Made by a program: the position numbers and the translations under genes. 64,000 bases of DNA from Cyanidium caldarium (Eukaryota > Rhodophyta > Bangiophyceae > Cyanidiales > Cyanidiaceae). Location: positions 62,001 to 126,000 of the forward strand of contig JANCYW010000004.1 of NCBI GenBank assembly GCA_026184775.1, written 5' to 3'. This document shows, piece by piece, positions 11,158 to 46,400 of this stretch (position 1 is its first letter; every line of letters begins with the position of its first letter). The notes beneath the pieces are model-generated. The model worked only from the letters and a program-made list of their open reading frames with translations, was not told where the DNA came from and did not search any database.

Positions 11158-11835
11158 CTACTCTCCATAGCAGTGCTGATCGGGAGACTCGCCGAGCAGC
11201 ACGTAAGAGTAGACGTCGTCGCTAAGCAGTGCGACGGTGTAGGAGGCGGCCAGATTGTAGCGACCGGCCTTCAGGGTGCTGTTCAGTTTGGCTTCCAGTT
11301 TGGGCACGGCCAGCAGGCCCGCCTCGTACGCCTTGTAGCCGTATAGACCCGTGCCGGCTTCGCCCAGTTCGCTGGTCCAGTTGAAGTAGCGGCCGGGGAG
11401 ATGGGTGGCGATCGCCACGCCGGTCACCGACGGGCTGGTCCATCCGACCCTCCGCAGCGTATCGGTGGTAGCGTTGGGCGTCAACTGGCTGCAGTTGTTG
11501 GCGTTCACTTCCGCCACCGTGCACAGCGTGGCCATATCCACCAAGTCGGCGGCTGCCAGCGTCAACGCGTAATTGAGGCACAAGTGCGGATTGACGGCCA
11601 TAATCGAGTTGATGAGCGTATAGTCGTACTGCGAGTAGTTCAAGTCTCCAGCGATGGTCATGTTCAACAACGGCCCAGCGCCTGGCGAGTGCGACGGCGA
11701 CGGCGCTACGCGCGCCACCCATTCGGCATCCCGCGCGTGCAAATCCGCCAGCAGCTCCGTCGCTTGCACAGCGCGTCCGTGCAGCAACGAGAGCGAGAAA
11801 AGCAACACACACAATAGCCTGTAAAGCGTCCGCAT
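11158..11835 (-). CDS. Secreted orphan protein A1 (A family)
   Basis: A 225-aa protein of no recognised family. A clear N-terminal signal peptide (LLCVLLFSLSLLHG, about 7-25) predicts secretion. It is a paralogue of A2 (15521-16186): both share N-Y-[ST]-Q-[FY]-D-Y-T-L, [KH]CYG near the C-terminus and four cysteines with matching spacing (86, 105, 115, 222 here; 71, 90, 100, 202 in A2). Several Asn-X-Ser/Thr sites suggest N-glycosylation. I considered fasciclin and other adhesion folds but saw none of their motifs. It is divergent from B1 and lies at one edge of the four-gene secreted cluster. The first ATG of the frame gives the signal peptide and is preferred. Confidence 0.75.
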   Translation of the reverse strand: MRTLYRLLCVLLFSLSLLHGRAVQATELLADLHARDAEWVARVAPSPSHSPGAGPLLNMTIAGDLNYSQYDYTLINSIMAVNPHLCLNYALTLAAADLVDMATLCTVAEVNANNCSQLTPNATTDTLRRVGWTSPSVTGVAIATHLPGRYFNWTSELGEAGTGLYGYKAYEAGLLAVPKLEAKLNSTLKAGRYNLAASYTVALLSDDVYSYVLLGESPDQHCYGE

Positions 11836-12477
11836 TTTGGCAATGAAATCAACGGGGCAACGCCAACCTCTACAGGCGTTGTCGAGTTTTCGGCAGCCCA
11901 GTTGCTATTTCTAGCCGAAACCAAAAATGGCGCCCGGCTCTGTTCATGGCGCATTTCGACGCTCGCGCGACCGAGGCCGTTTTGCGGGCCACCGATTCCG
12001 TCCGTTCGTGGCGCGTCGAGCACGCTCACGCGGATTCCCAGGGAGACGGTCACTGGCCAATGCAGCAACGAATATGGCCGCTTTGGAAGACGACTCGCCG
12101 GAATACCGAATGCGACGGTTTCGTGTGCGTCGTCTTGGCAGAACAGCAGGAGAGAACCGTCTCACCGACACGCAGACAGCACCTCCAGCGAGTCTTGCCG
12201 CGACAATCCACAACGAATCTCTTGGTGGCTGCCGCCGCGATGAACAGTCCTGTCTTGCGCTTCCCCTCCCGTGGAGAGCGCCCAGACCACACCCGTCCTA
12301 GACGTTGCAAACGCTGCGACACCCAGACATAAACCCAGCCTAGCTGTCCGTCCCCGTTGACCGAAACCGAACGATGCCGCGGACACGGCGCGAATGCGGC
12401 ACGCACGGACGGCCGCTGCGCAGGCGCTGGCGCCGGCATTGGTGTTCGGTAGCACCTGTCGCAAGCACCCCAGCGAC
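11836..12477. promoter_or_regulatory. Divergent A1/B1 intergenic region
   Basis: These 642 bp separate divergently transcribed A1 and B1 and probably hold both promoters. Reading frames here are compositionally noise (Arg/Cys/Ser-rich, with no homology to the paralogous proteins). The upstream frame of B1 is open to an ATG at 12394, so part of this region might instead encode an N-terminal extension of 28 residues. Confidence 0.45.
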
Positions 12478-13494
12478 ATGATGCTGCTGTGGGCCCTCTT
12501 CTTTTGCGGCGCCGTCGCGCGCTGGTCATCCTGGGAGCCGCCGCATCACAACGACGGTATCAAACTGCAGGGCGGTGCGGCCGCTTCGCCCGGGGCGCGG
12601 CTCTCACCCGCTATCCGTGCTGGGCAGTGGCCGCGCGCGTCGCCCGGCAGTCACCTCACCGACACGTTCGGTCATCTGCAGATATCCTTCCAGCCGCTGG
12701 CACCGCCCTCTTTCGAGCCCATCCCGTCGCTGCCATCAGGCAACCTGGAGTCGACGGCGCCGACCCAGACCGGTTGCAGTTGTCCGGTCAGCCCCACTCC
12801 GACACCGCCCACGCCCACACCTACATGCACCTGCCCGGTAAGACACACCAGCCAAGCGCCGACGCGCACGGCGGTGCGCACCACCTCCCGCACGTCGTCG
12901 CCGCCGGGCTCGCCCACCAGCAACGGTCGCGAATGCATCAGCGGCGCCGGCGCGCGCGTATACTGGGTGTGGGTTGATCAGGCCGGCGGTCTCATCAAGT
13001 GGGTGTTTCGTAATCCCACCGACCACAAGACCACCGTGGTGCTGGAGCGTGGCATCGTCGGCTCCGGCAGTTACTGTTTCGGCGATGCCTATTGGCCGGC
13101 GTACCTGGAAGTGGGCTTGACGCACATCTCCGACGGTCCGTACGCGCCCATATCGGGCAGCAGGCAGAACTTGCCGCTGGCGGTGATCGGCAAAGCGCGC
13201 CCCGGTGTCTGCTTCGTGTTCCCGCTCGATCCGCACAGCAGCGTGGAGGTGGACGAGGGCGGATTCGGCGGCTACCAGCCATTCTGCCACGAGCTGGTGG
13301 ATGTCCAGTTCGCCGGCAACTTTGAATACCGCATCACCTACAACGTGCGCGACCAGTGCAACGACTTTGGCGGCAGCAGCAACTGCCCGCCCAATCCGCT
13401 GCAAACCCGCGTGCCCCAGTACCGCCCGCTAGACGGCTCGACCGCCGGAGAGTTTGGCCCGCAGGGCAACGATGTCATCGAGCTGGAGTCGTAG
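12478..13494 (+). CDS. Secreted orphan protein B1 (Hog-less paralogue of B2)
   Basis: A 338-aa predicted secreted protein: signal peptide LLWALFFCGAVA at the start, then a Pro/Thr/Ser-rich segment with two Cys pairs (about 85-150), then a compact domain (about 153-325). That domain is about 45 percent identical by eye to B2 and keeps its six cysteines with almost the same spacing (153, 200, 245, 270, 294, 303; gaps 47-45-25-24-9). Shared motifs are CFGDA-[FY]-WPAYL, CFVF and NCPPNPLQT. B1 stops about where the Hog domain begins in B2. The domain is not one I recognise. The ATG at 12478 gives the best signal peptide; one at 12394 would bury it. Confidence 0.8.
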   Translation: MMLLWALFFCGAVARWSSWEPPHHNDGIKLQGGAAASPGARLSPAIRAGQWPRASPGSHLTDTFGHLQISFQPLAPPSFEPIPSLPSGNLESTAPTQTGCSCPVSPTPTPPTPTPTCTCPVRHTSQAPTRTAVRTTSRTSSPPGSPTSNGRECISGAGARVYWVWVDQAGGLIKWVFRNPTDHKTTVVLERGIVGSGSYCFGDAYWPAYLEVGLTHISDGPYAPISGSRQNLPLAVIGKARPGVCFVFPLDPHSSVEVDEGGFGGYQPFCHELVDVQFAGNFEYRITYNVRDQCNDFGGSSNCPPNPLQTRVPQYRPLDGSTAGEFGPQGNDVIELES

Positions 13495-13854
13495 GGGAAA
13501 AACTCGGTGCGGACGGCCTGCACCTCTACGGTGGCGCGCTGCTGCGCCTGCAGCAAGCGCTCCGCAGCGGTTGGCAGGTCGTCGAGAGAGTCAGGTCGTG
13601 GGCGTCTCTGGGTCCGTGAACGAAACCGCGACCTCACCGTCGTCCCCCACCCGATTCGAGGTAGGTCCTCTGTCATCCATTGCCTGGGGAGTCGCTGCCA
13701 CTCCCCCGTCTTGCTCCTCCGCAACCCTCGCCACACGTCCGACCAACGCTGGACAATTCGATGGTCAGCGCATGTCCGGACGGACACGTGGTCGACGTCG
13801 ACATTTCGCTATTCGCCTCGTACCAGGGTGTTCACTTCGGAGTCGGCGTGAGGC
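13495..13854 (+). other. Intergenic between B1 and B2
   Basis: These 360 bp lie between two tandem paralogues. I looked in all three forward frames for a decayed Hint domain downstream of the B1 stop and saw no Hint motif. It presumably holds the B1 3' end and the B2 promoter. Confidence 0.5.
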
Positions 13855-15330
13855 ATGGTGTCTGGTCGGAGATGGGCACTGCTGGTGGCAATCTTGTTGG
13901 TGTGTCTGGGACTTGGGACAGTGGGGGAGGCGGCGCGATTCAAGTCTCTCCCGGAGGCGCAGATGCTGGCGAACCTGTCGCGGACAGCAGCTGTGGCTAC
14001 CGCCTCCCCGCTGACCCGGCAGGGGCACGCCCCCGACGTGGACGGTGACGGTGTGCGCACCATCGGGCCGGCGCCGCCACCGGCATCAGCGCCGCCGGCA
14101 CCGCTGAACAACGGACAGACCTGTGCGAGTGACCAGGGTGCGCGGGTCACCTGGACGTGGTATGACCAGTCGTCGGGTGTCGTGTACTGGACGTTTTACA
14201 ACCCCACCAACGAGACCGCCCGGTTGGTGCTGAACCGTGGCATTCTGCAGGAGCCCGGCTCGACGTATTGTTTTGGAGATGCGTTCTGGCCGGCATACTT
14301 GGTGAGCAACCTGGCGTACATCTCTCCGGGGCCGTACCCGCCGCTGGGCGAGAACACCCAGGACTTGCCGCTAGGAATCATCGGCAACCAGACGCGCTTG
14401 GTGTGCTTTGTGTTCACCTTGGCGCCGGGGGCGACGTATTTGTTGCCGGAGGCGGGCTTTAACGGGGTGGCGCCCAAGTGCTCCGCGTTGCTAGATGTCA
14501 AGTTCGAGGGCAACGTGCCGATGTCGATACCGTACAGCAAGTCGTTGCAGTGCAGCGCGTTTGGCGGCACCACCAACTGCCCGCCGAACCCGCTGCAGAC
14601 CACCATGCCGCTGTATCAGCCGGTGAGCGGCTCGGCGGCGGGCGCCTTTGTGCCGTCCGACAAGGGCGGCGGTGGTATCGTGTGTTTCGCCGAGGAGGCG
14701 CGTGTAGCCCTGCCCGGCGGCCGCTGGAAACGCATGCGCGATGTGGCAGTGGGTGACCTGGTGGCCACCCGGCGGCGACATCCGCAACGCGGTATGGAGA
14801 CGGTGTTCACCCGCGTGTACGGTTTTGCCGATCGGCTACCGCAGGAAGAGGGCGTTGCCTACGTGCGGCTGGTAACTGGGAGCGACGGCAGCGCCCTGGA
14901 GCTGACACCGAATCATCTGGTGTGGGCAGCGCGTTCACGAGCGAGGGGAGAGGACGGCGGCGGCGGCGCCTTTATGATGGCCGGCGAGGTGCCGCTGGGC
15001 ACCTACCTCCAGAATGGTGACGGGAAGCGCGTGCAGATTGTTCGCGTCGAACGGGTGCACCGGCGAGGCGCCTACGCCCCGCTGACCGAGGCCGGCACCC
15101 TGCTGGTGGACGACCACTGGGTGTCGTGCTATGGCAACATCCGCTCGCACGACGTTGCCCATGCCGTTTTCGCACCGCTTCGCACGCTGTACCGAGTGCG
15201 ACAATGGCTACCGGTGAAATGGAGAATGTCTGCACAGCTGGAGGGACTGCACTGGTACGCGACGCTTTTGCTACGGATACGCTTGGTGGTGAACCGCTTG
15301 GTGCTGACGCGCTTTGAGGAGGTATCTTGA
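13855..15330 (+). CDS. Secreted B-domain protein with Hedgehog-type Hog (Hint) domain
   Basis: A 491-aa protein: signal peptide (1-26, ending VGEA), Pro/Ala-rich linker, six-cysteine B domain (90-262, shared with B1), a Gly run, then a Hog domain (about 275-485). The Hint catalytic set is complete: nucleophile Cys277 in IVCFAEEARV, Thr351 and His354 in LTPNHLVW, and the block GAYAPLTEAGTLLVDD followed by WVSCYG with Cys425. Beyond Hint it keeps AHAVFAPLR, a WLP motif and GLHWYA (464-469), which match the end of animal Hedgehog proteins (AHWGLAPMR, WLP, GIHWYA), the sterol-recognition part. In the Hedgehog family this domain cuts itself off by thioester chemistry and attaches a lipid to the released N-terminal domain; that this one does so is inferred. 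The B domain is unlike the Hedgehog signalling domain. Confidence 0.9.
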   Translation: MVSGRRWALLVAILLVCLGLGTVGEAARFKSLPEAQMLANLSRTAAVATASPLTRQGHAPDVDGDGVRTIGPAPPPASAPPAPLNNGQTCASDQGARVTWTWYDQSSGVVYWTFYNPTNETARLVLNRGILQEPGSTYCFGDAFWPAYLVSNLAYISPGPYPPLGENTQDLPLGIIGNQTRLVCFVFTLAPGATYLLPEAGFNGVAPKCSALLDVKFEGNVPMSIPYSKSLQCSAFGGTTNCPPNPLQTTMPLYQPVSGSAAGAFVPSDKGGGGIVCFAEEARVALPGGRWKRMRDVAVGDLVATRRRHPQRGMETVFTRVYGFADRLPQEEGVAYVRLVTGSDGSALELTPNHLVWAARSRARGEDGGGGAFMMAGEVPLGTYLQNGDGKRVQIVRVERVHRRGAYAPLTEAGTLLVDDHWVSCYGNIRSHDVAHAVFAPLRTLYRVRQWLPVKWRMSAQLEGLHWYATLLLRIRLVVNRLVLTRFEEVS

Positions 15331-15520
15331 TGCTGAAAGTGAGTCCTCTTGAGTAAAATAGCAGTGCAGACGAGTGGCCGTGACCGAGGCTGCAGCAGCG
15401 AGGGGCCCGATGTAGCGTTCGGCATCGAGAGCGGTCGAACACGTGTCGGTTTTCTCCGCGAGCTGGGCACCGATCGCCCATCCCATCAACCTCACCTACC
15501 GCCACCGCACCCCCGACGTC

Positions 15521-16186
15521 ATGGCGTACCGAATCACTCTCCTTCCCATCTTCCTTCTCCTCGCCTCCCTCCTCCCTCCTCTCCGCATTCTGGCCCTACC
15601 GCTCGCACTGCGGGCGACCCATCCCACATCCCACACCGACAACCTGAACGAGAACGTGGCCATGACGCTCAACTATACCCAGTTCGATTACACGCTGGCC
15701 AATGCGCTGCACAAGATCAACCCGAAGATCTGTCTCAACTACGACTTGACCATAGCCGCGGAGAACGTGGCCGATCTGCTGCCGTCGTGCACCGTGGACG
15801 AGGTGGGTGCCGACAACTGCAGCTCGCTGACCGCATCAAGTGTGCGCGAGGCGTTCGCCAGTGCCGGGTGGAACAGCTCGGATGTGCAGGGCGTGCAGTT
15901 GGCCGCCAGCCTGCCGGCGCGCGATTTCAACTTTACCTACGGAGAGGGGCTGGTCGGTCGTACCGGCTATGAACAGGGGCTGCGCGCGGCGCCGCAGGTG
16001 GTATCCAAGTTGAGACCGTACTTGGAGGCGCGGCGTCTGAACCTGGCCGGAGTCGGCTCGGTGTCGCTACTGGATGATAAGGTATATGCGTTTGTGGTGA
16101 TCGGAGAGGGTGGTGGGCAAAAATGTTATGGCGACGAGGCCGGGCAACCGTTGTACGACTTTGGCGGTGACAGCTACATTACGTGA
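15521..16186 (+). CDS. Secreted orphan protein A2 (A family)
   Basis: A 221-aa predicted secreted protein with a strong hydrophobic start (ITLLPIFLLLASLL) and several N-glycosylation sequons. Paralogue of A1: same order of motifs, four cysteines at 71, 90, 100 and 202, and KCYGD near the end, followed by a tail that A1 lacks. The family is unknown to me. It lies 190 bp downstream of the Hog protein on the same strand, so each B gene has an A gene beside it (A1 divergent from B1, A2 tandem after B2). The start at 15521 is chosen because it begins the signal peptide; the frame is open upstream. Confidence 0.75.
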   Translation: MAYRITLLPIFLLLASLLPPLRILALPLALRATHPTSHTDNLNENVAMTLNYTQFDYTLANALHKINPKICLNYDLTIAAENVADLLPSCTVDEVGADNCSSLTASSVREAFASAGWNSSDVQGVQLAASLPARDFNFTYGEGLVGRTGYEQGLRAAPQVVSKLRPYLEARRLNLAGVGSVSLLDDKVYAFVVIGEGGGQKCYGDEAGQPLYDFGGDSYIT

Positions 16187-18776: not shown

Positions 18777-20588
18777 TCACAACGGCCCGCCCGGCAGGAG
18801 CGACGGGCTGTATCCTTTGCGCACAAACTCGTCCTTCATGCGCTGGGACAGCCGGCGCGCCTGTGTCTCGTACGCGCGCGCGTCGCTCCAAAACTGTTGC
18901 GGATCCAACAAGTGCGCGTCGACACCACTTACGTGCCGCGGCACCCGCAACCCGAATATCGGGTCGGGCGGCTGCAACGCCTCTTCGCGTATCTCGTCAC
19001 TCGTAATCGCATCCACAATAGCGCGCGACACGCCGATATCCATGCGCGGCGCCCCTGACGAAGCCGACCCGCCGGCCCATCCGGTGTTCACCAGGAACAC
19101 TTTGGTGCCGTGCTGGCGCATCTTGTCGCGCAGCAGGTCGGCGTAGACGTGCCCCGGCAGCGGCATGAACGCTGCGCCGAAACACGTGCTAAAAGTGGCC
19201 GTCGGCTCGCGTATGCCGCGCTCGGTGCCCGCAATCTTGGCGGTATACGCCAGCGTGAAATGGTAGGCGGCCTGATGCTCGTCCAGCATGGCCACCGGCG
19301 GCAGCACGCCGAACGCATCACACACCAGAAACACGAACGCCTTGGGCGGCGGTCCGCGGCGCGAAGGCTCCCAGTTGGGGATGCTCTGGATGGGGCACGA
19401 GGCGCGGGTGTTGGGCGTCTTGCGCGCGTCATCAAAGTCGACCACGCCCTGCTCGTCCACGACCACATTCTCCAAGATGGTCTGCGGCTCCCGGATGGCG
19501 TTCCAAAGAAGCGGCTCTTTCTGCGACGACAGATGAATCACTTTGACATAGATACCGCCCTCCATGTTGCGTACCGCGTCGGCATCCCACACGTGCTCGT
19601 CATCGCCGATAAGCAGGCGGTGCGGATCCGCCGACAATGTCGACTTGCCGGTGCCCGACAGACCCCTGTCGCGCTCGTCGTATCGAGGTCGGTTAGTTTG
19701 TCGCTCCACTGCCTGAACAGTACTCGTCCCAATGAAGTTCCGTACTTACGCAAAACACACCGTGTCCGGATGCTCGGCATCCAGACTGCAGGTTGCTGAG
19801 CAGTGCAGCGGCAACATGCCCTGCTGCGGCAACATCGCGTTCATCACCGTGAAAATGCCCTTCTTCATCTCGCCGCTATACTGCGTGCCGCCAATCAGGC
19901 CCAGCCGCTTCTCCAACGACAGCGCGATAAACACGTCCGAATGCAGTCCCATCTGATGGTACTGCGGGTTGCGCAAGCGGCAGGCGTTGACGATGGTAAA
20001 GTCGGGCTCGCCGAATGCCTCGCGCTCGGCCCGACTGCCCAGCGGGATAAACATGTTCGTCACGAACGCGTGGTGCCAGGCCAGCTCGGTCACCACCCGC
20101 ACCTTCAGGCGGCTGGCGCCGCTACACACGTAGCCGTCGTACACGAAAGCGCGCGGCCGCTGCCCCATGTGCCGGGCCACGGCGCTGCGCAACGCCTCGA
20201 ATACCTCCGGGGCAATCGGTTGATTCACCTCGTTCCAGTCAATATCACGCTCCCATACCGACCCCGGACGGCACTCGATGTAACGGTCGTGCGGCGAGCG
20301 GCCAGTATACGCGCCCGTGTCCACACACAGAGCGCCCGGGGGATCGCGCGACTCCACCCCCTCACCGAGCGCCAAAGCCATCGATCTCGCCCGATCAAAC
20401 GGCAGGTTGTGGTGCAGTTCCCCCGGCAACGCTGCTATACCCAGCCGGTCGCGCAGAAACGCGCGGGCCGCATCGACACTGGCGCCCGCTGATGGCGACG
20501 GCGCCGCTTGCACACCTCGACCTCGGCGCCATAACGTGTTGTAGCGGTTCCGCTGAACAACCCGCGTCGCGGCCCTCCACAACGGCAT
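18777..20588 (-). CDS. PCK1: Phosphoenolpyruvate carboxykinase (ATP type), one intron
   Basis: Converts oxaloacetate and ATP to PEP, CO2 and ADP (gluconeogenesis, or C4-like carbon shuttling in algae). The gene is split: exon 1 is 20588-19750 and exon 2 is 19665-18777, joined in phase 2 to give 575 aa. The join restores CFA-GLSGTGKST, the kinase-1a P-loop. Other family motifs are DTGAYTGRSPHDRY, LGLIGGTQYSGEMKKG, IGDDEHVW, EGGIYVK and NTGWAGG. The N-terminus (MPLWRAATRVVQRNRY...) is basic and amphipathic, like a mitochondrial presequence; that location is inferred. It is tail-to-tail with the trehalose phosphatase gene and divergent from the exchanger gene. Confidence 0.93.
19666..19749 (-). 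other. Spliceosomal intron in PEP carboxykinase (84 bp)
   Basis: On the minus strand it begins GTAAGT and ends CGACAG, with the branch-site sequence AAACTAACC about 26 nt before the acceptor. Splicing joins GC|G to form the Ala codon before the P-loop. The unspliced frame runs into a stop within the intron. Donor, branch and frame restoration all agree. Confidence 0.92.
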
Positions 20589-29362: not shown

Positions 29363-31792
29363 ATGAACAGGGACCCGAGCATCATGAGTGCCGGCTCCGA
29401 GGAGCACCCTCCGCTGGGAGGCGCGGTGGACGGCGAGCACCACGAAGTTGACTCCGCGGCTGCTGCCCACGACCGGGCTTTCGATCATACTCCGGAGAGC
29501 GCGTTGAAAGTGCACGAGGCGGCGGCGGCAAACCGTGCGCGGTTCCATCTCTTCGCCAACGCGCCCGAGGACATCCAGACGCGTTTGGCCCAGTCGCGCA
29601 AGGCGATGAAGCTGGTGTTTCGCAACCTGCACTATCAGGTACCGATAACGCTACCGCCGGAGTCAACGAAAACGTTTGTGGACCGATACATTGTGGAGCC
29701 ACTGCGATCGCTGCTCCCAGAGGGGCTCTCTCAGCGCACGTACGGGTGGGTGGAGCTGCTGCACGGGGTGAGCGGTGTCGTGCGACCGGGCGAGTTCTGT
29801 GCGATACTGGGTGGCTCGGGCGCCGGCAAGACCACGTTGCTGAACGCCATCGCCGGCCGCTCCATGCTCCCGCCGTCGGAGGGCAGCGTGACGTTCAACG
29901 GGCGTACCCGCACCCACGCCACCCGCCGCCTCATCGGCTACGTGATGCAGGACGACGTGTTCCTGAGCAACCTCACGGTGGAGCAGACGCTGCGCTTCAC
30001 CGCCAGTATCCGCCTGCCGCGCACCATGACGCGAGAGGAGAAGCGGCGGCGGGTGGATGAGGTGTTGCACTCACTGAATTTGGACAAGGCGCGAAACACC
30101 ATTATCGGCGACCAACAGTTCAACAAGGGCATCAGCGGCGGCGAGCGCAAGCGCGCCAACATTGCCGAGACGCTGCTGACCAACCCGTCGTTGCTGCTGC
30201 TGGATGAGCCCACGAGCGGTCTGGACTCCACCACGGCGCTGTCTGTGGTGCGCCTGCTGAAGGATCTGGCGCTGTCGGAGGGGCGCACGGTGGTGGCGAC
30301 GGTGCATCAGCCGAGCTCGGTGATGTGGTCGGAGTTTGACAAGGTGTTGCTGTTGGCGGATGGCTCCACGGTGTACTTTGGTCCGGCGAGCGAGGCCACT
30401 GCCTACTTTGAGCGGCAGGGCTTTCGGCTGCCGTACGGGTACAACCCGGCGGACTATTTGCTGGATCTGTTGGTGAGCGGCTTGGAGAGTGGCGGTCGGA
30501 TGACCGAGGAGCGTTGGCGGTCGGTGCCGGAGCGTGTGCGTCGGGAGGCGCGTCGGATGTTTGGCAAGGGCGGTGCGTCGGGGTCGCTGGACGTATCGGA
30601 CGAGGACGATGAGAAGTCGGCGTCGGTGTACTCGGAGCTGACGGCGTCGATGGTGTTGCGGGCGGCGTGGTGTCTGAACGAGGCGGAGATGATGTCGGCG
30701 GAGCGTGCGGCGTACGAGTCGCGGGCGCGGGAGTACTCGACGATAGCGCGTGCGGCGGCGGCGTCGAATCGGGACAGGGCACGAGCGGCGGTGGCGGCGG
30801 AGCTGTCGGACGGCGGCACCTTTGTGGAGCGGCACGGCGCGGAGAAGGACGGCGATGACGATGAGGATGAGGTCGGCGAGCAGTACACCGAACACAAGTA
30901 TGCGGTGTCGTGGTACGAGCAGTTTCGGGCGCTAGCGTTGCGCGCCATCCTGCAGAGTGGCTCATCTTTTTTCACGTGGGTAACGCTGTCGCAAGCGATA
31001 GCCGTGTCGTTGCTGGCGCTGTTCGTCTGGGTCGGCTCGCCCGACGACGAAAGCGGCATTTATCCGCGCCTCGGGTTGGTGTTCTTCACGGGCATCTTCT
31101 GGTCGTTCACCGTTTTGTACAGCAGCATCACCTCGTTTCCGATGGAGAGAGCGGTGTTGAACAAGGACCGCTCCGCCGGCAGCTACATGTTGTCGGCCTA
31201 CTTTCTGGCCAAGACCTCCATCGAGAGCCCGATGCAGCTCGTGTACCCGTATATGTTCACGCTGATCGTGTACTTTTCGGCCAACCTGAAGCGCACCGCA
31301 TCCGCGTTCTTCCTCTTCGCGGTGTTGCTCTCGATGCAGGTTATGGTGGCGCAGTCGCTGGGCTACTGGCTCAGCAGCATGGTGATGGACTTTGCGCAGT
31401 TGGCGGTAATGGCGGCGCTGTGGATGGTCGGGACGATCCTGGTCGCCGGGTTCTTCATCCCCATCTCCAAAATGCACGTGTGGTTCCGCTGGATTCGTTA
31501 CGTGTCGTTTGTATATTACGGCTACAACGGGTTCATTATCAACGAATTCCAGGACAGCACCTATGCCTGCGAGGACAACGGTGCCGGTGGCGGCGGCGTT
31601 CAGAGCAAGTCGTACCCGTCATGTGCAGAGTCGCCGCCGCAACCGGTGACGTCTCAGGAGATCTTCCGTGCTTACAACGTGGACACGACGTTTGGCATCG
31701 GCGGCTGCATTGGCATGTTGATCATGTTCATGGTGGTGATGCGCATATTCGCCTATTTGAGTCTCAAGTATGTGCAGGGCGTGCGCAAGTAG
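29363..31792 (+). CDS. ABCG half-transporter, copy 1
   Basis: ATP-binding cassette transporter of subfamily G (WBC type, nucleotide domain first), 809 aa. Walker A is GGSGAGKTT (nt about 29811-29837), the ABC signature is ISGGERKR, Walker B is LLLLDEPTSGLDS and the H-loop is TVHQPSS. Between the ATPase and membrane domains lies an unusual acidic, Ala-rich segment of about 150 residues ending in EDEVGEQY. The membrane domain has about six helices with KDRSAGSYMLSAYFLAKT, typical of the family. Half-transporters dimerise to export lipids, waxes, sterols or drugs; the cargo is unknown. Copy 2 is 618 bp downstream and shares a nearly identical central tract. Confidence 0.95.
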   Translation: MNRDPSIMSAGSEEHPPLGGAVDGEHHEVDSAAAAHDRAFDHTPESALKVHEAAAANRARFHLFANAPEDIQTRLAQSRKAMKLVFRNLHYQVPITLPPESTKTFVDRYIVEPLRSLLPEGLSQRTYGWVELLHGVSGVVRPGEFCAILGGSGAGKTTLLNAIAGRSMLPPSEGSVTFNGRTRTHATRRLIGYVMQDDVFLSNLTVEQTLRFTASIRLPRTMTREEKRRRVDEVLHSLNLDKARNTIIGDQQFNKGISGGERKRANIAETLLTNPSLLLLDEPTSGLDSTTALSVVRLLKDLALSEGRTVVATVHQPSSVMWSEFDKVLLLADGSTVYFGPASEATAYFERQGFRLPYGYNPADYLLDLLVSGLESGGRMTEERWRSVPERVRREARRMFGKGGASGSLDVSDEDDEKSASVYSELTASMVLRAAWCLNEAEMMSAERAAYESRAREYSTIARAAAASNRDRARAAVAAELSDGGTFVERHGAEKDGDDDEDEVGEQYTEHKYAVSWYEQFRALALRAILQSGSSFFTWVTLSQAIAVSLLALFVWVGSPDDESGIYPRLGLVFFTGIFWSFTVLYSSITSFPMERAVLNKDRSAGSYMLSAYFLAKTSIESPMQLVYPYMFTLIVYFSANLKRTASAFFLFAVLLSMQVMVAQSLGYWLSSMVMDFAQLAVMAALWMVGTILVAGFFIPISKMHVWFRWIRYVSFVYYGYNGFIINEFQDSTYACEDNGAGGGGVQSKSYPSCAESPPQPVTSQEIFRAYNVDTTFGIGGCIGMLIMFMVVMRIFAYLSLKYVQGVRK
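29733..30948 (+). repeat. Gene-conversion tract, copy 1 (1,216 bp)
   Basis: This stretch aligns without gaps to 32787-34002 at a fixed offset of 3,054 bp. By eye only seven bases differ, all before 30116 (six between 29962 and 30075, one at 30115). From 30116 to 30948 the copies look identical, while both flanks differ in protein and DNA. A second shared run of about 70 bp lies near 31163-31233 and 34217-34287. Confidence 0.9.
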
Positions 31793-32410: not shown

Positions 32411-34846
32411 ATGGCCACGAGCCGAGAACCGAGCATCGTGGACGCCCTGCCCGGGGACCTCCCTCCCGACGGCGACCGGGCGGTGAACGGTGGCCGCCCC
32501 GTGCCGGGCGCGACTATTGCTGACGACTGCCACTTTTCGTCCAACGACCATGAGGGCGCCATGAAAATGCACGAGGACGCTGCGCACGCCCGAGGGCGCC
32601 TGCAGCTGTTCACCGGCGCGTCCAGGGACACGCAGGTGCACTTGGCGCGGTCGCGCAAGGCGCTCACGCTGGACTTTTGCAATGTGCACTATCAGGTGCC
32701 GATAACGCGACCGCCCCCGGCGCAGACGCGTATGGATCGATTCGTGTGGCGACCGCTGCGTTCCTTATTGCCGCAGGCGCTCAACGAGCGCACGTACGGG
32801 TGGGTGGAGCTGCTGCACGGGGTGAGCGGTGTCGTGCGACCGGGCGAGTTCTGTGCGATACTGGGTGGCTCGGGCGCCGGCAAGACCACGTTGCTGAACG
32901 CCATCGCCGGCCGCTCCATGCTCCCGCCGTCGGAGGGCAGCGTGACGTTCAACGGGCGTACCCGCACCCACGCCACCCGCCGCCTCATCGGCTACGTGAT
33001 GCAGGACGACGTGTTCTTCAGCAACCTCACGGTGGAGCAGACGCTGCGCTTCACCGCCAGTATCCGCCTGCCGCGCACCATGACGCGAGAGGAGAAGCGG
33101 CGGCGGGTGGATGAGGTGTTGCGTTTTCTGAATTTGGACAAGGCGCGAAACACCATTATCGGCGACCAGCAGTTCAACAAGGGCATCAGCGGCGGCGAGC
33201 GCAAGCGCGCCAACATTGCCGAGACGCTGCTGACCAACCCGTCGTTGCTGCTGCTGGATGAGCCCACGAGCGGTCTGGACTCCACCACGGCGCTGTCTGT
33301 GGTGCGCCTGCTGAAGGATCTGGCGCTGTCGGAGGGGCGCACGGTGGTGGCGACGGTGCATCAGCCGAGCTCGGTGATGTGGTCGGAGTTTGACAAGGTG
33401 TTGCTGTTGGCGGATGGCTCCACGGTGTACTTTGGTCCGGCGAGCGAGGCCACTGCCTACTTTGAGCGGCAGGGCTTTCGGCTGCCGTACGGGTACAACC
33501 CGGCGGACTATTTGCTGGATCTGTTGGTGAGCGGCTTGGAGAGTGGCGGTCGGATGACCGAGGAGCGTTGGCGGTCGGTGCCGGAGCGTGTGCGTCGGGA
33601 GGCGCGTCGGATGTTTGGCAAGGGCGGTGCGTCGGGGTCGCTGGACGTATCGGACGAGGACGATGAGAAGTCGGCGTCGGTGTACTCGGAGCTGACGGCG
33701 TCGATGGTGTTGCGGGCGGCGTGGTGTCTGAACGAGGCGGAGATGATGTCGGCGGAGCGTGCGGCGTACGAGTCGCGGGCGCGGGAGTACTCGACGATAG
33801 CGCGTGCGGCGGCGGCGTCGAATCGGGACAGGGCACGAGCGGCGGTGGCGGCGGAGCTGTCGGACGGCGGCACCTTTGTGGAGCGGCACGGCGCGGAGAA
33901 GGACGGCGATGACGATGAGGATGAGGTCGGCGAGCAGTACACCGAACACAAGTATGCGGTGTCGTGGTACGAGCAGTTTCGGGCGCTAGCGTTGCGCGCC
34001 ATTCAGCAACGCGCCGGGGTGATCTTCACCTTCCTCACCCTGACACAGACGCTGGCACTGTCGTTGCTGGTGTTGCTGATCTGGCTCAATTCGCCCAACA
34101 ACGAGAAGGGCATTTACCAGCGCCTCGGGCTGGCGTTCTTCTCGGGCATCTTCTGGTCGTTCTTTGCGCTCTTCAACAGCATCACCTCGTTTCCGTCGGA
34201 GAAGGCGGTGCTGGCCAAGGACCGCTCCGCCGGCAGCTACATGTTGTCGGCCTACTTTCTGGCCAAGACCTCCATCGAGAGCCCGTTGGAGCTGATATAC
34301 CCCTACATGTACGCCATCATGGTGTACTTTGCGGCCAACTTGCAGCGCACTGCCTCGGCGTTTTTCCTGTTTCTGGTGCTGCTGTCGCTGCTGACGCTGG
34401 TGGCGCAGTCGATGGGGTACTGGATCAGCAGCATGGTGATGGACTTCAAACAGGCGCAGGTGATCGCCTCGCTGTGGATGCTCGGGTCGATGCTGGTGGC
34501 CGGATTCTACATCCCGGAATCGGAAATCCCGGTGTGGTTGCGCTGGATTCGCTACGTGTCGTTCGTATTTTATGGCTACGTCGGCCTGATCGTCAACGAA
34601 TTTCAAGGCACCACCTACAAGTGTGTGAGTGGCGGCAGCGCCAGCAGCGATACGCGTGGTGCATCGTTCCCGTCATGCAACGAATCGCCACCGAAGCCGA
34701 TCACGCCCAGCGAGATCTACAGCGCGTACAGCGTGAACACCACGTTTGGCGTCGGCGGCAGCATCGGCATGCTCGTCATGTTCCTCATTGTGCTCCGTCT
34801 GCTTGCCTACTTCACGCTGAAATACATTCAAAAGGTGAAAAAGTAG
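32411..34846 (+). CDS. ABCG half-transporter, copy 2
   Basis: An 811-aa ABCG/WBC half-transporter, tandem paralogue of copy 1, with the same order of Walker A, signature, Walker B, acidic linker and C-terminal membrane domain. Residues from RTYGWVELLHG to the linker end are the same as in copy 1 except for three positions (FFSN for FLSN, RF for HS before LNLDK). The N-terminal 125 residues and most of the membrane domain have diverged: for example LNSPNNEKGIYQRLG against VGSPDDESGIYPRLG. So the two pumps probably share ATPase behaviour but may differ in cargo or partner. Confidence 0.95.
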   Translation: MATSREPSIVDALPGDLPPDGDRAVNGGRPVPGATIADDCHFSSNDHEGAMKMHEDAAHARGRLQLFTGASRDTQVHLARSRKALTLDFCNVHYQVPITRPPPAQTRMDRFVWRPLRSLLPQALNERTYGWVELLHGVSGVVRPGEFCAILGGSGAGKTTLLNAIAGRSMLPPSEGSVTFNGRTRTHATRRLIGYVMQDDVFFSNLTVEQTLRFTASIRLPRTMTREEKRRRVDEVLRFLNLDKARNTIIGDQQFNKGISGGERKRANIAETLLTNPSLLLLDEPTSGLDSTTALSVVRLLKDLALSEGRTVVATVHQPSSVMWSEFDKVLLLADGSTVYFGPASEATAYFERQGFRLPYGYNPADYLLDLLVSGLESGGRMTEERWRSVPERVRREARRMFGKGGASGSLDVSDEDDEKSASVYSELTASMVLRAAWCLNEAEMMSAERAAYESRAREYSTIARAAAASNRDRARAAVAAELSDGGTFVERHGAEKDGDDDEDEVGEQYTEHKYAVSWYEQFRALALRAIQQRAGVIFTFLTLTQTLALSLLVLLIWLNSPNNEKGIYQRLGLAFFSGIFWSFFALFNSITSFPSEKAVLAKDRSAGSYMLSAYFLAKTSIESPLELIYPYMYAIMVYFAANLQRTASAFFLFLVLLSLLTLVAQSMGYWISSMVMDFKQAQVIASLWMLGSMLVAGFYIPESEIPVWLRWIRYVSFVFYGYVGLIVNEFQGTTYKCVSGGSASSDTRGASFPSCNESPPKPITPSEIYSAYSVNTTFGVGGSIGMLVMFLIVLRLLAYFTLKYIQKVKK
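32787..34002 (+). repeat. Gene-conversion tract, copy 2 (1,216 bp)
   Basis: Partner of the tract at 29733-30948. Its edges are sharp: the 5' edge is at AGCGCACGTACGGG and the 3' edge at GCGCGCCAT, after which the sequences diverge at once. It covers the ATPase domain and the acidic linker but not the membrane domain. Confidence 0.9.
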
Positions 34847-40434: not shown

Positions 40435-43400
40435 TCAGCGTGGGCGACCGCTGAGCGTGTAACCTTGGAGGTGTCGCAGCCAGGCGGGTAAATGAGGATG
40501 CATCGAGGGATAGCCAAGAGCGGCTGTGAGCGCCACTCGATCGAACCAGTGCGCCCGAAAGCGTATCGCATGGCCGTCCGGGTCGGATGTGGCGTGTCGT
40601 GTCAGCGAGTGCAGACGCGAGCGCAACGTGGTATCGATCCAAGCGGCCGCCGCATCCGCATCCCCGCATTGACGCCAACGCTGCACCAACCGGTCTACCG
40701 CGGCGCGAGCATCGACCGATGCGGATGCGTCGGTCGGGTCGTCATAGGATATGCGGGATAAACGATCGGCGGCCGCATACAACCAGCGCAAGAGGGTGTG
40801 CGCGGTGAATGACCATTGGGACACCTGCTCCTCCTCCTCCGACGGCATCGCCCGCACCCCGACCACGGCGTGCGCCAACCGGTACACCGCGTTCCAGCGC
40901 TGCGGAATCGATCGATCGGATACGTTCCGCGTCAGCGCCTTCGCCACCGCGGCCGCCATCATGCCCAATGCGTCGCCGGCCCACAGCACCGCCGGACCGC
41001 ATCGCCGCTGCCCCCGCCCCGCCGCGCAGCAGGTACGCACGAACAGCTCGGCGTCCGCCCAGGAGGCGGCATCGACAGCCGTCGACGCCGGCATGCACAG
41101 CGCCGCCACTTCCCGTATCCAGTGCCGCTGAAACGTCTCCAATCGCTGACGATCCATCCTGCCCGCGACCGCCAGTGGACCGAGCGCCGCGCGCCCGGCC
41201 ACCGCACCCTCGAGCAGCACGGCATCGATGCACGCCAACCAGTCGCCCTGATGGTCGTTATCGCCACAACCCTCGGCATTGTGCCGCATCCCTCTCTCCA
41301 CGGATACATCCGGCAAGCCGGGTATCAGACCGCGTGCCACGGCGACGACCGCATGGCGAGCGACACTGGCAGCCACCACATTGCGCATAAAACTCACATA
41401 GTACGCATCGTGGGGCGCAAACTCCATCTGTGACATGCCCCGCAACACCAGCGCGATCCAACGATGGCTCGCAACCGTGTCCACTTGTTCACTCTCTGTG
41501 CGAGTGGCGTTGGATGTGGACGCCGTGCCCAGCTCCAGCGCCCGCCGACCTACTTTGATCAACTCGGTCCAGAACGGCGGCCGGCCGGGTATGCGCAACA
41601 GGTTCGGACACACCGTCAACAGCGCGCCAGCCACGTCTACCACAAAGGCGCGCACATCACGCACGCCGTGGTGCTCGCGGCTGGTGGGCGCCCGACTCCA
41701 CAGGGTCACCACCTGGCCGAGCGCCTCGCAGATATCGTACAGCAGTTGGGCGAAGCGCTGCCGCACACGGGGCCACTGCATCGTCGGAGGCATCGCCACG
41801 GCCGACTGCTGCGCTGTCGCCTGACGCAACTGCACGCACAGCTGCAGCAACGCCGTCTTGGCAGTCGGCATCGTCAACGTATCCGTCAGTGCCGAAGACG
41901 ACTCCAAGCGCTCCAACCACACCGCCAGGGTGTGTCGTGCGGTCCCGACGGCAGCGGCCGCGTCGTGCCGTCGCGGATGACGAGTGAGCGCGCGCACCAA
42001 CGCCCGCGCTTGCGATAACCATTCTGTCGCCAGGCGACTGCGCCACGGTGGCACCGAAAACGCGGCATCCTGATGCGTCCCCGACGAGAGCAGCGTTGGC
42101 GCCGTCGCCCAAGCGCCCGCCAACGCCCGCATCGCCGCGTCGCAGACGTGCATGCCGAGCACCTCGCTTGTCGACTCCTCGTCAAACGCGTCAACAATGG
42201 TGAACCGCGGGATGACCACCGCAAACGCCGCATCCGCCTCGACGATGTGAACCAACAGCTCCACCAGCAGTGGCGATGACGCCGCCACCGTGAACAGAGC
42301 TTGCCACGCAGCTTCTCCGCCGCGAACGCCCTCCACCAGCGTGGCCAGTGCCACCGATCGCCCCAGAACGACCGACAACAGCGGATGCACAGCACCCGAA
42401 TGCCGAGCGGCGTACGGGGCAGCAGCAGGGGCGTTGACTGCCTGCGCCATCGCCGCCGCCGCCACCTCCCACGCTCGGTGCAGATGACGCCACGCCGGCG
42501 TGCCCGGCCGCAGCACCCGCAACACACATGCCCGCGCCACTTGCGCCTCCACATCCATGCTCAACAGCGACAGAGCGATGTCATCGCCGGGCACGACGTC
42601 CTCCGTCGGGCCCACTCCGGTCGAGTCGCGGCCCGGCATCGACGTCTGCAGCGCCCGACCGGTGAGCGCCGCCAGAAACGACAACAACGCCTGGGTGAGC
42701 GTGGCCGGTATACCGGGCACCATGCCCATCGCAGACGTCCCCGTCGTCGCCGCGACGCCCTCTGCATGGCATTCCGTCAACAGCACCGACACCGCCGGCA
42801 CCAGGCACTGCACCGCACTCCAGTCGCCCGCCGAGACATTCTCCGGCGCTGCAGCCTGCAGCCAGCGGGTGGCATCGTCCAGCGCAGCGACCACAGCATC
42901 CACCAAACGCTCACGTCGACCACGCCGCGCCACCAGATGGTGCGCAAGCACCACCGGCATGCCCGAGGCGGCCGTGGCCGCTGTTGGCTCGTCGGTGTCC
43001 GCCAGCGCTCGCACCAGCTGCCGCAGCATCTCCACCCAACTGGCCGCGTTGTCGCGCAGCAGGGGAGTGGCCACCAATGCGGCGGACAGAGCGTTGTGCT
43101 CTGCACCGACCACCGACGCAGCCGCTACCAGGGGCGATGCGCCTGTCGTGGCCTCCTCCGCGCCCAACCGATAAGCGGCCGCCCGACACCACCCCAAGCG
43201 CGCGCCCATCAGATACCGCATCCCCGACACTCCCGCCGCATGACTCAGCTGGCGATACAGGGCGCGCTGCTCGGCAGCGTTCAGGCACACGCTCAACAGG
43301 ACGATGCCATGCAGCTGCAGCACCCTCAGTGGCGTGCTGTCGGGCTCGGGGGAATGCGCCACCCAGCGGTGGGTGTCGGAGGCGGCGCGCAGTAGCGCCA

Positions 43401-46400
43401 GCCAGCGCTTGCCCTGCTGACGCCATACCCGCCAGGGATCATCCACCAGGTGTCGGCAGGGTTGCCATCCCAGCTGCACATGACGACAGAGCAGGCACAG
43501 CGCCCGAGTCATCCATTCCCACTCGGGAACTGCCGCAACCGATGTCGTTATCGAATCGTCGCGAGCGGCACGCACCGCCTCCCCAACGGATGCCACCGTC
43601 AATAGACGTGGCAGATGCTGCCGCGCCCAGGCGTCCAGAGCGGCCGCCAGGCGCTCTGCAGTGCGGCTCTGGGAAAAAGGGAGTGCCGCGGCGGACGCGT
43701 CCGGCCCTGCCGTCAGCTGCGCCGCCTGAATGCCCGCTTGTAACGACAGGCGCACCAGACCGTCGGGCACCGATGCCACATCCGCCGCCTGCACGCAGGC
43801 GTCATCCACGGCCCAGGCGAGCCGCAACACCTGCCCGAGCAGGCGAGCATCGGTGGAGGGCGCGACCGGTGCGACGACCGTGGCGTGTCGCAACCAGCCA
43901 TCCCAAAACCAGGCGTCCAGCCCACGATGCTGCTGTGGTAACAGCATGCGCGCCCACACGCTCAGCACCGTCAGGGTGAGAGCGCTACATTCCGCCGGGT
44001 CACTGTGGACGGAACCGGTGTTGTGCGCTGTGCGAGGCGACAACTGCGATCGGATGCGCCGACAAGCCCCCTCGATCAGCTGCCAGGTGCGCGCCACCCG
44101 GTCGCTCCCTCCTGCAGTCGCCGCGGCCATCAGTGTCTGTGCCAGGCGTCGGAAACGACGCGCTGCCGTCGATTTCCGGGCGGCGACGCCCGATGCCGCC
44201 AGCTCCAACACCAGCGCACGGCGTTCCGACCACTGATGCAACAGCTCGCGCACGCAACCATCCACCACGGCCGTCAGATAACCGTCAGTGGTAGGCGGCG
44301 CAGCATCGGCGCTGTCGGCTACATGAGACGTCTGAATATCCCCCTCCCATTCCGGCAGCATCAGGATGCCATATCGAGCCAGCGCCAACAGCCGCAGATG
44401 CACCGCACATCCACTGCCATCCTCGGGCACCTCCCGTCCCGGAGCGCGTTCGTCCTCGTCTGCATCGCGCAGCAGCGGCGTTTCCGCCATGCGCTGCACC
44501 AGCGCACGCGCCTCACCCCGCACATCCGCCAGCGCATCTTTCTGCGTGGTGTCTTCCACTTCCGCGACCGCATCATCGGTCGCCGCAAACTTGGCCGCCA
44601 GCCGTTGCGGTTCCAGCAGCTCCAGCACAGCGGGAGGCGATAAAGTGGCGCGGCCGTCAGCGCCCCGCGCCCGCACCGCCTCCAAACAGTGCGCCGCGGT
44701 GCACAGCGCGTAACACGTAGCCTGACACCGACGCGACACCGTCCACGTCACCATAGGCACTCGAGGGGCACCTCCATCGCTGGCGGCGGTGTCGGCTGCA
44801 TCGGCGCCTCTCTCGATGTCCGCGGAGAGAGAGCGATGCAGCTCGCGAGCCACCGTGGCCAGCAGCTCCCGCATCGAATGGATGCGGAAAAGGGATGCAT
44901 GGCGAAGTGACTCTGTGCCGGGTGCTCGTCGCGGCGTCGCGGAGACAACGCCGGATGATGCACACGTCCGTTCGGGACTGGCAGATCGAAGCACATTTTC
45001 ATCGGTGGCCACCCCGGCGGAGGTGCTTGCGGAGATATCTGCCAGGCTGACTTCCACCGACGGTTGCAGTCGTTGCGGCCGAGCGGTTTTGCGGGCGCGA
45101 GCGCCCCGCAATGTGCCTCTTGCGCTCTCCTCTGCACGCCCATCTTCCTCCTGGCTGGGAAACACCACGCGACGTGCCCGCGCGTGCCAGCGCTGCTTGT
45201 CGCGAGCGTGGTGAACCTCCAGACGCCACGCCGATATCGGGGGTGGAGACGAATCGCGGTGATGTGTCGTCAGCTGCTGCCGTCGACGCACCAGTCGTGC
45301 CACAATGCGGTCCAAGCGGGAGGTTGGCGTGCATCGATCCCGCGGTATCCTTGCACTCGGCATGCCCGCGCGTGGCATCGTCGTCCCCGTCGGTGATGCA
45401 CTCACACCAGACACGGCCATACCACGGCGCCGCTCGCGACTCACCTCGGTCGTCTCCGACAGTCGCGCTACCCTCCGTCCACACCTCTCGTAACGCTGCG
45501 GCAGCATATCGTCCTCCAGCTCTACCTTCTCGTCATCGCTGTCGGTGATGATACGGCGGGGTGGCCGACGCCTCGTCTCCCCGACGATCCCAGAGTCCCG
45601 TTCGTCCCATTCATTCATCGCCAACGGGCGTTTGTGGCGCATGCGTCCCGCCGTAACCGCCCCGTGCCGCGCGCCACGCCTACCCGCTGCATGCATCGAC
45701 GGGCCGACTCGCCGTACCGCCGGCACCGTCAGTCCGGCGGCGAAAGACGGGTGCAGCTGGCGAATCCACTCGTCCACCTGCTGCTCCATCTGCCGCACCT
45801 CCTCCCACTGCCAACACTCGCTCAGGCAGTTCATCGACTCGGGCACCGACACGGTGTGCGTGTCCTCGCGCTCCGGATGCAGGCGCTTCAGCTCGCCCTG
45901 CGCATTGAAGTCGTAAGTCGGGTCGTGCACCTCGCCGTTGCGGATGCAGGCGCGGTAAAAGTTGGAGCACTGATACCCGCACCGAGTGGGCACCGCCTTG
46001 CTGAATATGCCCCAGCAGCTGCCCAGACGCCAGCGATGGCGTTGCCAGCGCGTCAGCTCGGCGAAGAATTGCCGCCGCTCGGCGTCCGTCCACGCGTGCA
46101 ACGATTGCGTCTCCTGGCCAGCGACTTGGCCCGGGTCGGTGTGTCGATAATAGTAGGCGTTGGCGTTGACATGGCGGTCGCGCCACGCCTTGAGCGCCGC
46201 CTCCGACCACGACGCTACGGCGCGGCGAGTCCACTGCCAGGCGGCGGCGCGGTGCACGGCGCGTCGTCGCTGTCGGTCGGTGCTGCGAGCGGCGACCGAC
46301 GGTGGCCAGCTGGGCGCGGACGGGCAGCCGGTGGCAAGGCGGTGGGCGCGACGACGCACTCGATCGCGCTTCTGCCACTGCCGCGAGACGTCGGCGGCTT

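Follow-up and report, generated by a model that had tools for sequence, protein, structure and literature searches.

A domain with archaeal and viral relatives joined to a Hedgehog-type Hog domain in a predicted secreted protein of Cyanidium caldarium

Described Hog systems

Hog domains are thought to have swapped N-terminal partners freely in eukaryotes, and those partners are described as mostly lacking recognisable relatives (PMC2362128). The same survey (Buerglin, 2008) reports Hog genes in red algae, mosses, dinoflagellates, haptophytes, cryptophytes and other groups, many of them having secreted, cysteine-containing N-termini; in the non-truncated red algal and moss Hogs it describes, the motif-J cysteine is replaced (PMC2362128). 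Kelch, trefoil and Hint/Hog genes are described in the Cyanidiophyceae (PMC9812998, PMC13353863), with reported Hog gene counts of 17 in C. merolae, 10 in Cyanidiococcus, three in Cyanidium caldarium and two in G. partita (PMC13353863). Mainly haploid expression is reported for 8 of the 10 Cyanidiococcus Hogs, two of the three in Cyanidium caldarium and both in G. partita, with a similar pattern in C. merolae (PMC9812998, PMC13353863); haploid and diploid Cyanidium strains are described (PMC13353863). The available text of these Cyanidiophyceae Hog descriptions makes no mention of an archaeal N-terminus on a Hog (PMC9812998, PMC13353863), and a surface-level search of the open-access literature found no link between an archaeal domain and Hog.

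The B2 gene and its Hog domain

The window, i.e. the whole 64,000-nucleotide stretch of Cyanidium caldarium DNA analysed here (contig JANCYW010000004.1, positions 62,001 to 126,000), has a GC content of 64.6%; published figures for the genome are 65.7% GC, a size of 8.79 Mb, 4870 genes and 44 introns (PMC9812998, PMC13353863). Eukaryotic genes in the window include those for gamma-tubulin, FancD2, Mis12 and glucosidase II beta, and a carotenoid isomerase gene was also found (score 773.8 bits, cut-off 586.9). The one evident intron, of 84 bases (19666-19749, minus strand; GTAAGT to CAG, with ACTAAC inside), lies in a PEPCK gene, and its removal rejoins the ...FAGLSGTGKST... frame across two PEPCK ORFs. 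Two adjacent ABCG-type half transporters that share one domain make-up (29363-31792 and 32411-34846, plus strand) are probably a tandem duplication; an ORF of 2507 aa (40435-47958, minus strand) has no Pfam family at E<=1e-5; and a scan of the window for bacterial-type promoters and terminators returned nothing useful.

The ORF check on the window placed the gene studied, B2, at exactly 13855-15330 (plus strand, 491 aa). Its product begins with a signal-like N-terminus that has a hydrophobic core (mean Kyte-Doolittle value 3.3 over the 12 aa starting at residue 9), continues through a linker, the six-cysteine part and the GGGG hinge, and ends in the Hog domain, the B and Hog parts lying in a single frame with no stop between them (Table 1).

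Table 1 Features of B2 and its paralogue B1 (positions in the window).
Feature	Position	Strand	Basis
Signal-peptide-like N-terminus of B2, residues 1-26	13855..13932	+	by eye; hydrophobic core
B domain of B2, about residues 86-267, archaeal/viral family	14110..14655	+	PHROG 6678; tblastn SMR1; GTDB loci; AF2/Foldseek
GGGG hinge and residues IV ahead of the predicted cleavage site; Val276 at -1	14665..14682	+	sequence
Hog domain (Hint and sterol-recognition region), residues 277-479	14683..15291	+	PF01079; 6td6_B
Nucleophile C277 codon	14683-14685	+	
Asp326, equivalent of fly D303 (D46)	14830..14832	+	alignment to fly Hog
TPNH with Thr351 and His354 (TxxH motif)	14905..14916	+	sequence; fly alignment
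SCYG with Cys425, equivalent of fly C400	15124..15135	+	sequence; fly alignment
AHAVFAPLR, first sterol-recognition motif, residues 435-443	15157..15183	+	fly alignment
GLHWYA, second sterol-recognition motif, residues 464-469	15244..15261	+	sequence; fly alignment
B1, neighbouring paralogue, B domain without Hog	12394..13494 (likelier start 12478)	+	tblastn; PHROG 6678
Possible Hog-tail remnant behind the B1 stop, DGLHLYGGALLRLQ	13512..13553	+	shuffle and window tests

Pfam PF01079 matched B2 residues 276-479 (E=3.2e-39; 135.2 bits against a cut-off of 29.7) over positions 12-211 of the 213 of the model, i.e. Hint plus the sterol-recognition region. The best phmmer match in the PDB was Drosophila Hedgehog (6td6_B, E=2e-17, B2 residues 277-476 aligned to 258-460), and the four distinct PDB chains found at E<=10 are all Hedgehog proteins. 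Chance matching is far from accounting for these scores. The B2 Hog is identical to Drosophila Hh in 65 of 187 columns (35%): C277, D326, T351, H354 and C425 align on fly C258, D303, T326, H329 and C400, and AHAVFAPLR and GLHWYA on fly AHWGLAPMR and GIHWYA (the motif names K and L are taken from PMC2362128, and the assignment of the letters to the B2 motifs is our own). The five catalytic positions and both sterol-recognition motifs are intact. An intein was considered and rejected, with no Pfam intein family at E<=1 and, after SCYG, a sterol-recognition tail followed by the stop. Pfam at E<=1 returned Hint and Hint_2 only, with no match in B2 to the Hedge signalling domain. A full-length AF2 model of B2 from a two-row alignment was unusable (pLDDT 34.9).

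The motifs read in the initial annotation (nucleophile Cys277, Thr351, His354, APLT at residue 408, SCYG at 424 with Cys425, and GLHWYA at 464) were all recovered, and its assignment of a Hog-type domain agrees with the profile and phmmer searches. Its statement that every expected feature is present stands for these motifs, to which the unlisted Hog-specific Asp D326 can be added, but overlooked the residue before the nucleophile: the Gly described at -1 of Hh proteins (PMC13060885, PMC9163320) is Val276 in B2. Gly at -1, a feature described for Hh proteins, is not treated here as defining the Hog family. Taken together, the sequence comparisons support a genuine Hog assignment for the C-terminal part of B2, sterol-recognition tail included, as opposed to an ordinary Hint of the intein-like type.

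B1 and the N-terminal part of B2 are 49% identical (tblastn E=4e-60), and B1 has no Pfam family at E<=1. Just 3' of the B1 stop, DGLHLYGGALLRLQ resembles the B2 GLHWYA tail EGLHWYATLLLRIR, with a score reached by 4 of 1000 shuffles and by 2 of 173 other 360-base stretches; the full Hog query found nothing special behind B1 (76 of 1000 shuffles scored as high). It is possible, and these figures are suggestive only, that B1 once carried a Hog, since lost. Candidates for another Hog elsewhere in the window, weak matches around 53.2-53.6 kb and at about 11.9 kb on differing strands, look like chance. The B1-B2 pair is flanked by two related, secreted-looking proteins (46% identical; 11158-11835, minus strand, and 15443-16186, plus strand, likelier start 15521). 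This flanking A family (A1, A2) has no Pfam family, PHROG or phage match, and gave no match in 61 archaeal genomes in a search that ran without a positive control; NCBIfam returned nothing for B2, B1, A1 or A2.

Relatives and origin of the B domain

The N-terminal part of B2 had been described as a novel six-cysteine secreted domain; the six cysteines are there, but novelty did not survive the searches, which place the domain in a family of archaea and archaeal viruses. Searched with tblastn against 50,697 phage records, B2 gave eight matches at E<=0.01, all Sulfolobales viruses and some of them duplicate records, the best being SMR1 (NC_019413.1, E=3e-12), whose source is an acidic spring at pH 3.6 and 65 °C (PMC3569270). 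B1 matched SMR1 at 3e-13 and also its duplicate record, along with five further Sulfolobales-virus records that scored more weakly (5e-3 to 5e-2); a Microbacterium phage match to B1 (E=3) was taken as chance. PHROG 6678 matched both proteins (B2, E=7.2e-15; B1, E=1.6e-16), and no other PHROG matched either at E<=1. The SMR1 protein, orf32, is annotated as 'similar to Lipothrixviridae proteins; similar to archaeal proteins'. Plasmids gave no match at E<=0.01; in viral contigs, no Hog or B relatives came from scans that used A1, A2 or the Hog domain on its own, and the A4 scan returned nothing but the SMR1 virus.

A scan of GTDB contigs with SMR1, B2 and B1 together gave 47 candidate stretches and 22 confirmed loci, titled Thermoplasmata, Thermoplasmatota or Thermoplasmatales (18), Nitrososphaerales (2), 'archaeon' (1) and 'bacterium' (1). 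The scan with the algal pair alone found no B relatives, and single-query negatives are weak here because adding the viral protein to the query raised none to 22 loci. Among the loci compared, the best B2 match reached 39.6% identity (E=1e-26 within that small set). The family occurs in 28 of 61 genomes of relatives of a single carrier, and in 17 of 292 sampled from the whole of the carrier's phylum; PF01079 gave nothing over the cut-off in the 61 archaeal genomes, with two weak matches. The B protein of the contig titled 'bacterium' (L025) groups with the Nitrososphaerales rows in the 29-row tree, and the contig is probably a mislabelled archaeal one. A script placed seven of ten archaeal B loci; the ten neighbour proteins, from six loci, belong to mixed metabolic families and include no conserved neighbour. 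Five Pfam families each weakly matched one of 25 B members, and a profile search of PDB sequences found nothing at E<=10. The B proteins of loci L008-L029 and L030-L058 make up an uncharacterised archaeal family that has no Pfam model and is shared with Sulfolobales viruses.

The AF2 model of the B domain from a 25-row alignment (pLDDT 82.6, pTM 0.82) had two Foldseek matches in BFVD at E<=0.001, both Sulfolobales-virus proteins: one of Sulfolobus filamentous virus 1 (E=3.6e-09, TM 0.65/0.59) and one of Sulfolobales Beppu rod-shaped virus 1 (6e-08, TM 0.61/0.51); no PDB structure matched at E<=0.001. The predicted fold supports homology of B to the viral family, in a comparison not fully independent of sequence homology, since the input alignment included archaeal rows and SMR1.

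Between the signal-like N-terminus and the Hog domain, B2 has six cysteines (90, 139, 184, 209, 233 and 242), with a seventh, C17, inside the signal-like N-terminus. All six columns are common to B2 and B1 in the 25-row alignment; five of them hold cysteine in B1 and B2 only and in none of the 23 other rows (seven of which are gapped at the first column), and the sixth (C184) is cysteine in 8 of the 23. By eye, the archaeal and viral B frames start without an evident signal peptide; on both counts the signal peptide and most of the cysteines look like algal additions.

In the 29-row tree B1 and B2 group together (100/99) on a stem of length 1.71 that is weakly placed (42/63), and a long-branch warning applies; in the 41-row tree, from which four divergent viral rows were excluded, the pair sits within the archaeal rows, next to L038 and L039 (94/94), under the same long-branch caveat. 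The simplest reading, in which donor and direction are inferred, is that the alga received the domain from archaea or from viruses of archaea. The long algal stem and the 42/63 placement would also suit an ancient shared domain, or one that passed out of a eukaryote into archaea and viruses; the genomic B searches covered phage, prokaryote and plasmid sequences, and B may also occur in other eukaryotes. An origin without archaea-to-alga transfer is nevertheless unlikely, given the occurrence of B in 28/61 related archaeal genomes and 17/292 across the phylum, in the two loci titled Nitrososphaerales and in Sulfolobales viruses, and the position of the algal pair among archaeal rows in the 41-row tree. 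The archaeal likeness of half of B2 is the single point in favour of an assembly artefact, in which archaeal DNA was joined onto an algal contig. This explanation, already disfavoured, is highly improbable: B and Hog share a stop-free frame; the adjoining B1 has the same six cysteine columns; the GC3 values of the three B2 parts (0.76, 0.85 and 0.74) are in or near the 0.75-0.84 range of ten other ORFs, B1 included; and the flanking genes are eukaryotic.

Proposed processing and comparison with known systems

Under the transfer reading, the B domain would have entered the algal lineage horizontally from archaea or an archaeal virus. In the processing that we infer, B2 would be a precursor that its signal peptide sends to the secretory pathway; there the B domain, a beta domain of archaeal type with cysteines gained in the alga, would fold, probably with disulfides. 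The Hog domain would turn the peptide bond between V276 and C277 into a thioester, which a membrane sterol would then attack with the help of Asp326 and of the sterol-recognition tail with its two helices. The B domain would thereby be released with a C-terminal sterol ester that tethers it to the cell surface or to the outer face of the membrane.

Sterol ligation is judged the most likely chemistry for the B2 Hog. In Hh, loss of the Asp (D303/D46) is described to halt the sterol step with the acyl shift unaffected (PMC13060885, PMC9163320); H374, F377, R381 and the HWY motif of hSHH, reported to be required in cells (PMC7242414), have counterparts in B2. Galdieria and Cyanidium are reported to make ergosterol and 24-ethylsterols, and a route to cholesterol is inferred for C. 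merolae (PMC8172173); because of this reported synthesis in Cyanidium, a sterol partner is likely at hand. Val276 at -1 is the main reason for doubting sterol ligation, and a point against easy cleavage of B2. Together with the divergent helix-1 leucines (by our count, with no gap assumed, one of the membrane-facing L382, L386 and L390 of hSHH is kept by position) it could weaken sterol handling, so that the Hog would cleave without sterol transfer, the thioester falling to water or to some other small nucleophile and B becoming a soluble secreted protein; the nematode Hog adduct is described as unclear (PMC2362128). We consider this outcome rather unlikely, as D326, AHAVFAPLR and GLHWYA are all intact and the Hog Asp is described as serving the sterol step specifically (PMC13060885, PMC9163320). 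The same valine might block the acyl shift altogether, leaving B2 as one two-domain secreted protein with the Hog as a membrane-binding module, and B1 does exist without a Hog; the intact C277, T351, H354, D326 and C425 are unexpected for a dead domain, and loss of cleavage appears improbable.

Cleavage with sterol transfer is the outcome that we retain, and the reading as a whole (an archaeal domain acquired horizontally, secreted, with cysteines, and released by the Hog with a sterol) has, in our estimate, slightly better than an even chance of being right. We propose more tentatively that a thermoacidophilic alga captured an archaeal or viral domain and remade it with cysteines for secretion, and that a working Hog displays it on the surface of the alga through a sterol anchor. 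Because the five catalytic positions and both sterol-region motifs are kept, the B2 Hog is well suited to asking whether sterol transfer is older than animals.

Compared with the Hedgehog Hog (PF01079; Drosophila Hh, human SHH), B2 has the whole domain including the sterol-recognition region, with C, D, T, H, C and HWY, but gave no match to the Hedge signalling domain and carries Val at -1 instead of the Gly of Hh. The secreted-type N-terminus followed by Hog is shared with the non-Hh Hogs of red algae, the Cyanidiophyceae among them; however, as far as these are described, their N-termini are Kelch, trefoil-related or unassigned, whereas that of B2 is archaeal/viral, and the motif-J cysteine replaced in the non-truncated ones is kept in B2. 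The B domain resembles the PHROG 6678/SMR1 orf32 family of Sulfolobales viruses and archaea in sequence and predicted fold; unlike these, the algal copies add a signal-like N-terminus and cysteines, and B2 adds the Hog. The nematode hh-related genes (warthog/wart-only, ground-like) are described as having a secreted domain with and without Hog (PMC2362128), comparable to B2 and B1, but their N-terminal domains, judged by their names, are unrelated to B. A Hog in a red alga is in itself nothing new. The novelty of B2 lies in its cargo, a domain of archaeal/viral kinship that has become a predicted secreted, possibly sterol-linked algal protein. The Hog partner in B2 is traceable to archaea and archaeal viruses, offering a concrete route from a horizontally acquired domain to a secreted, possibly sterol-anchored protein.
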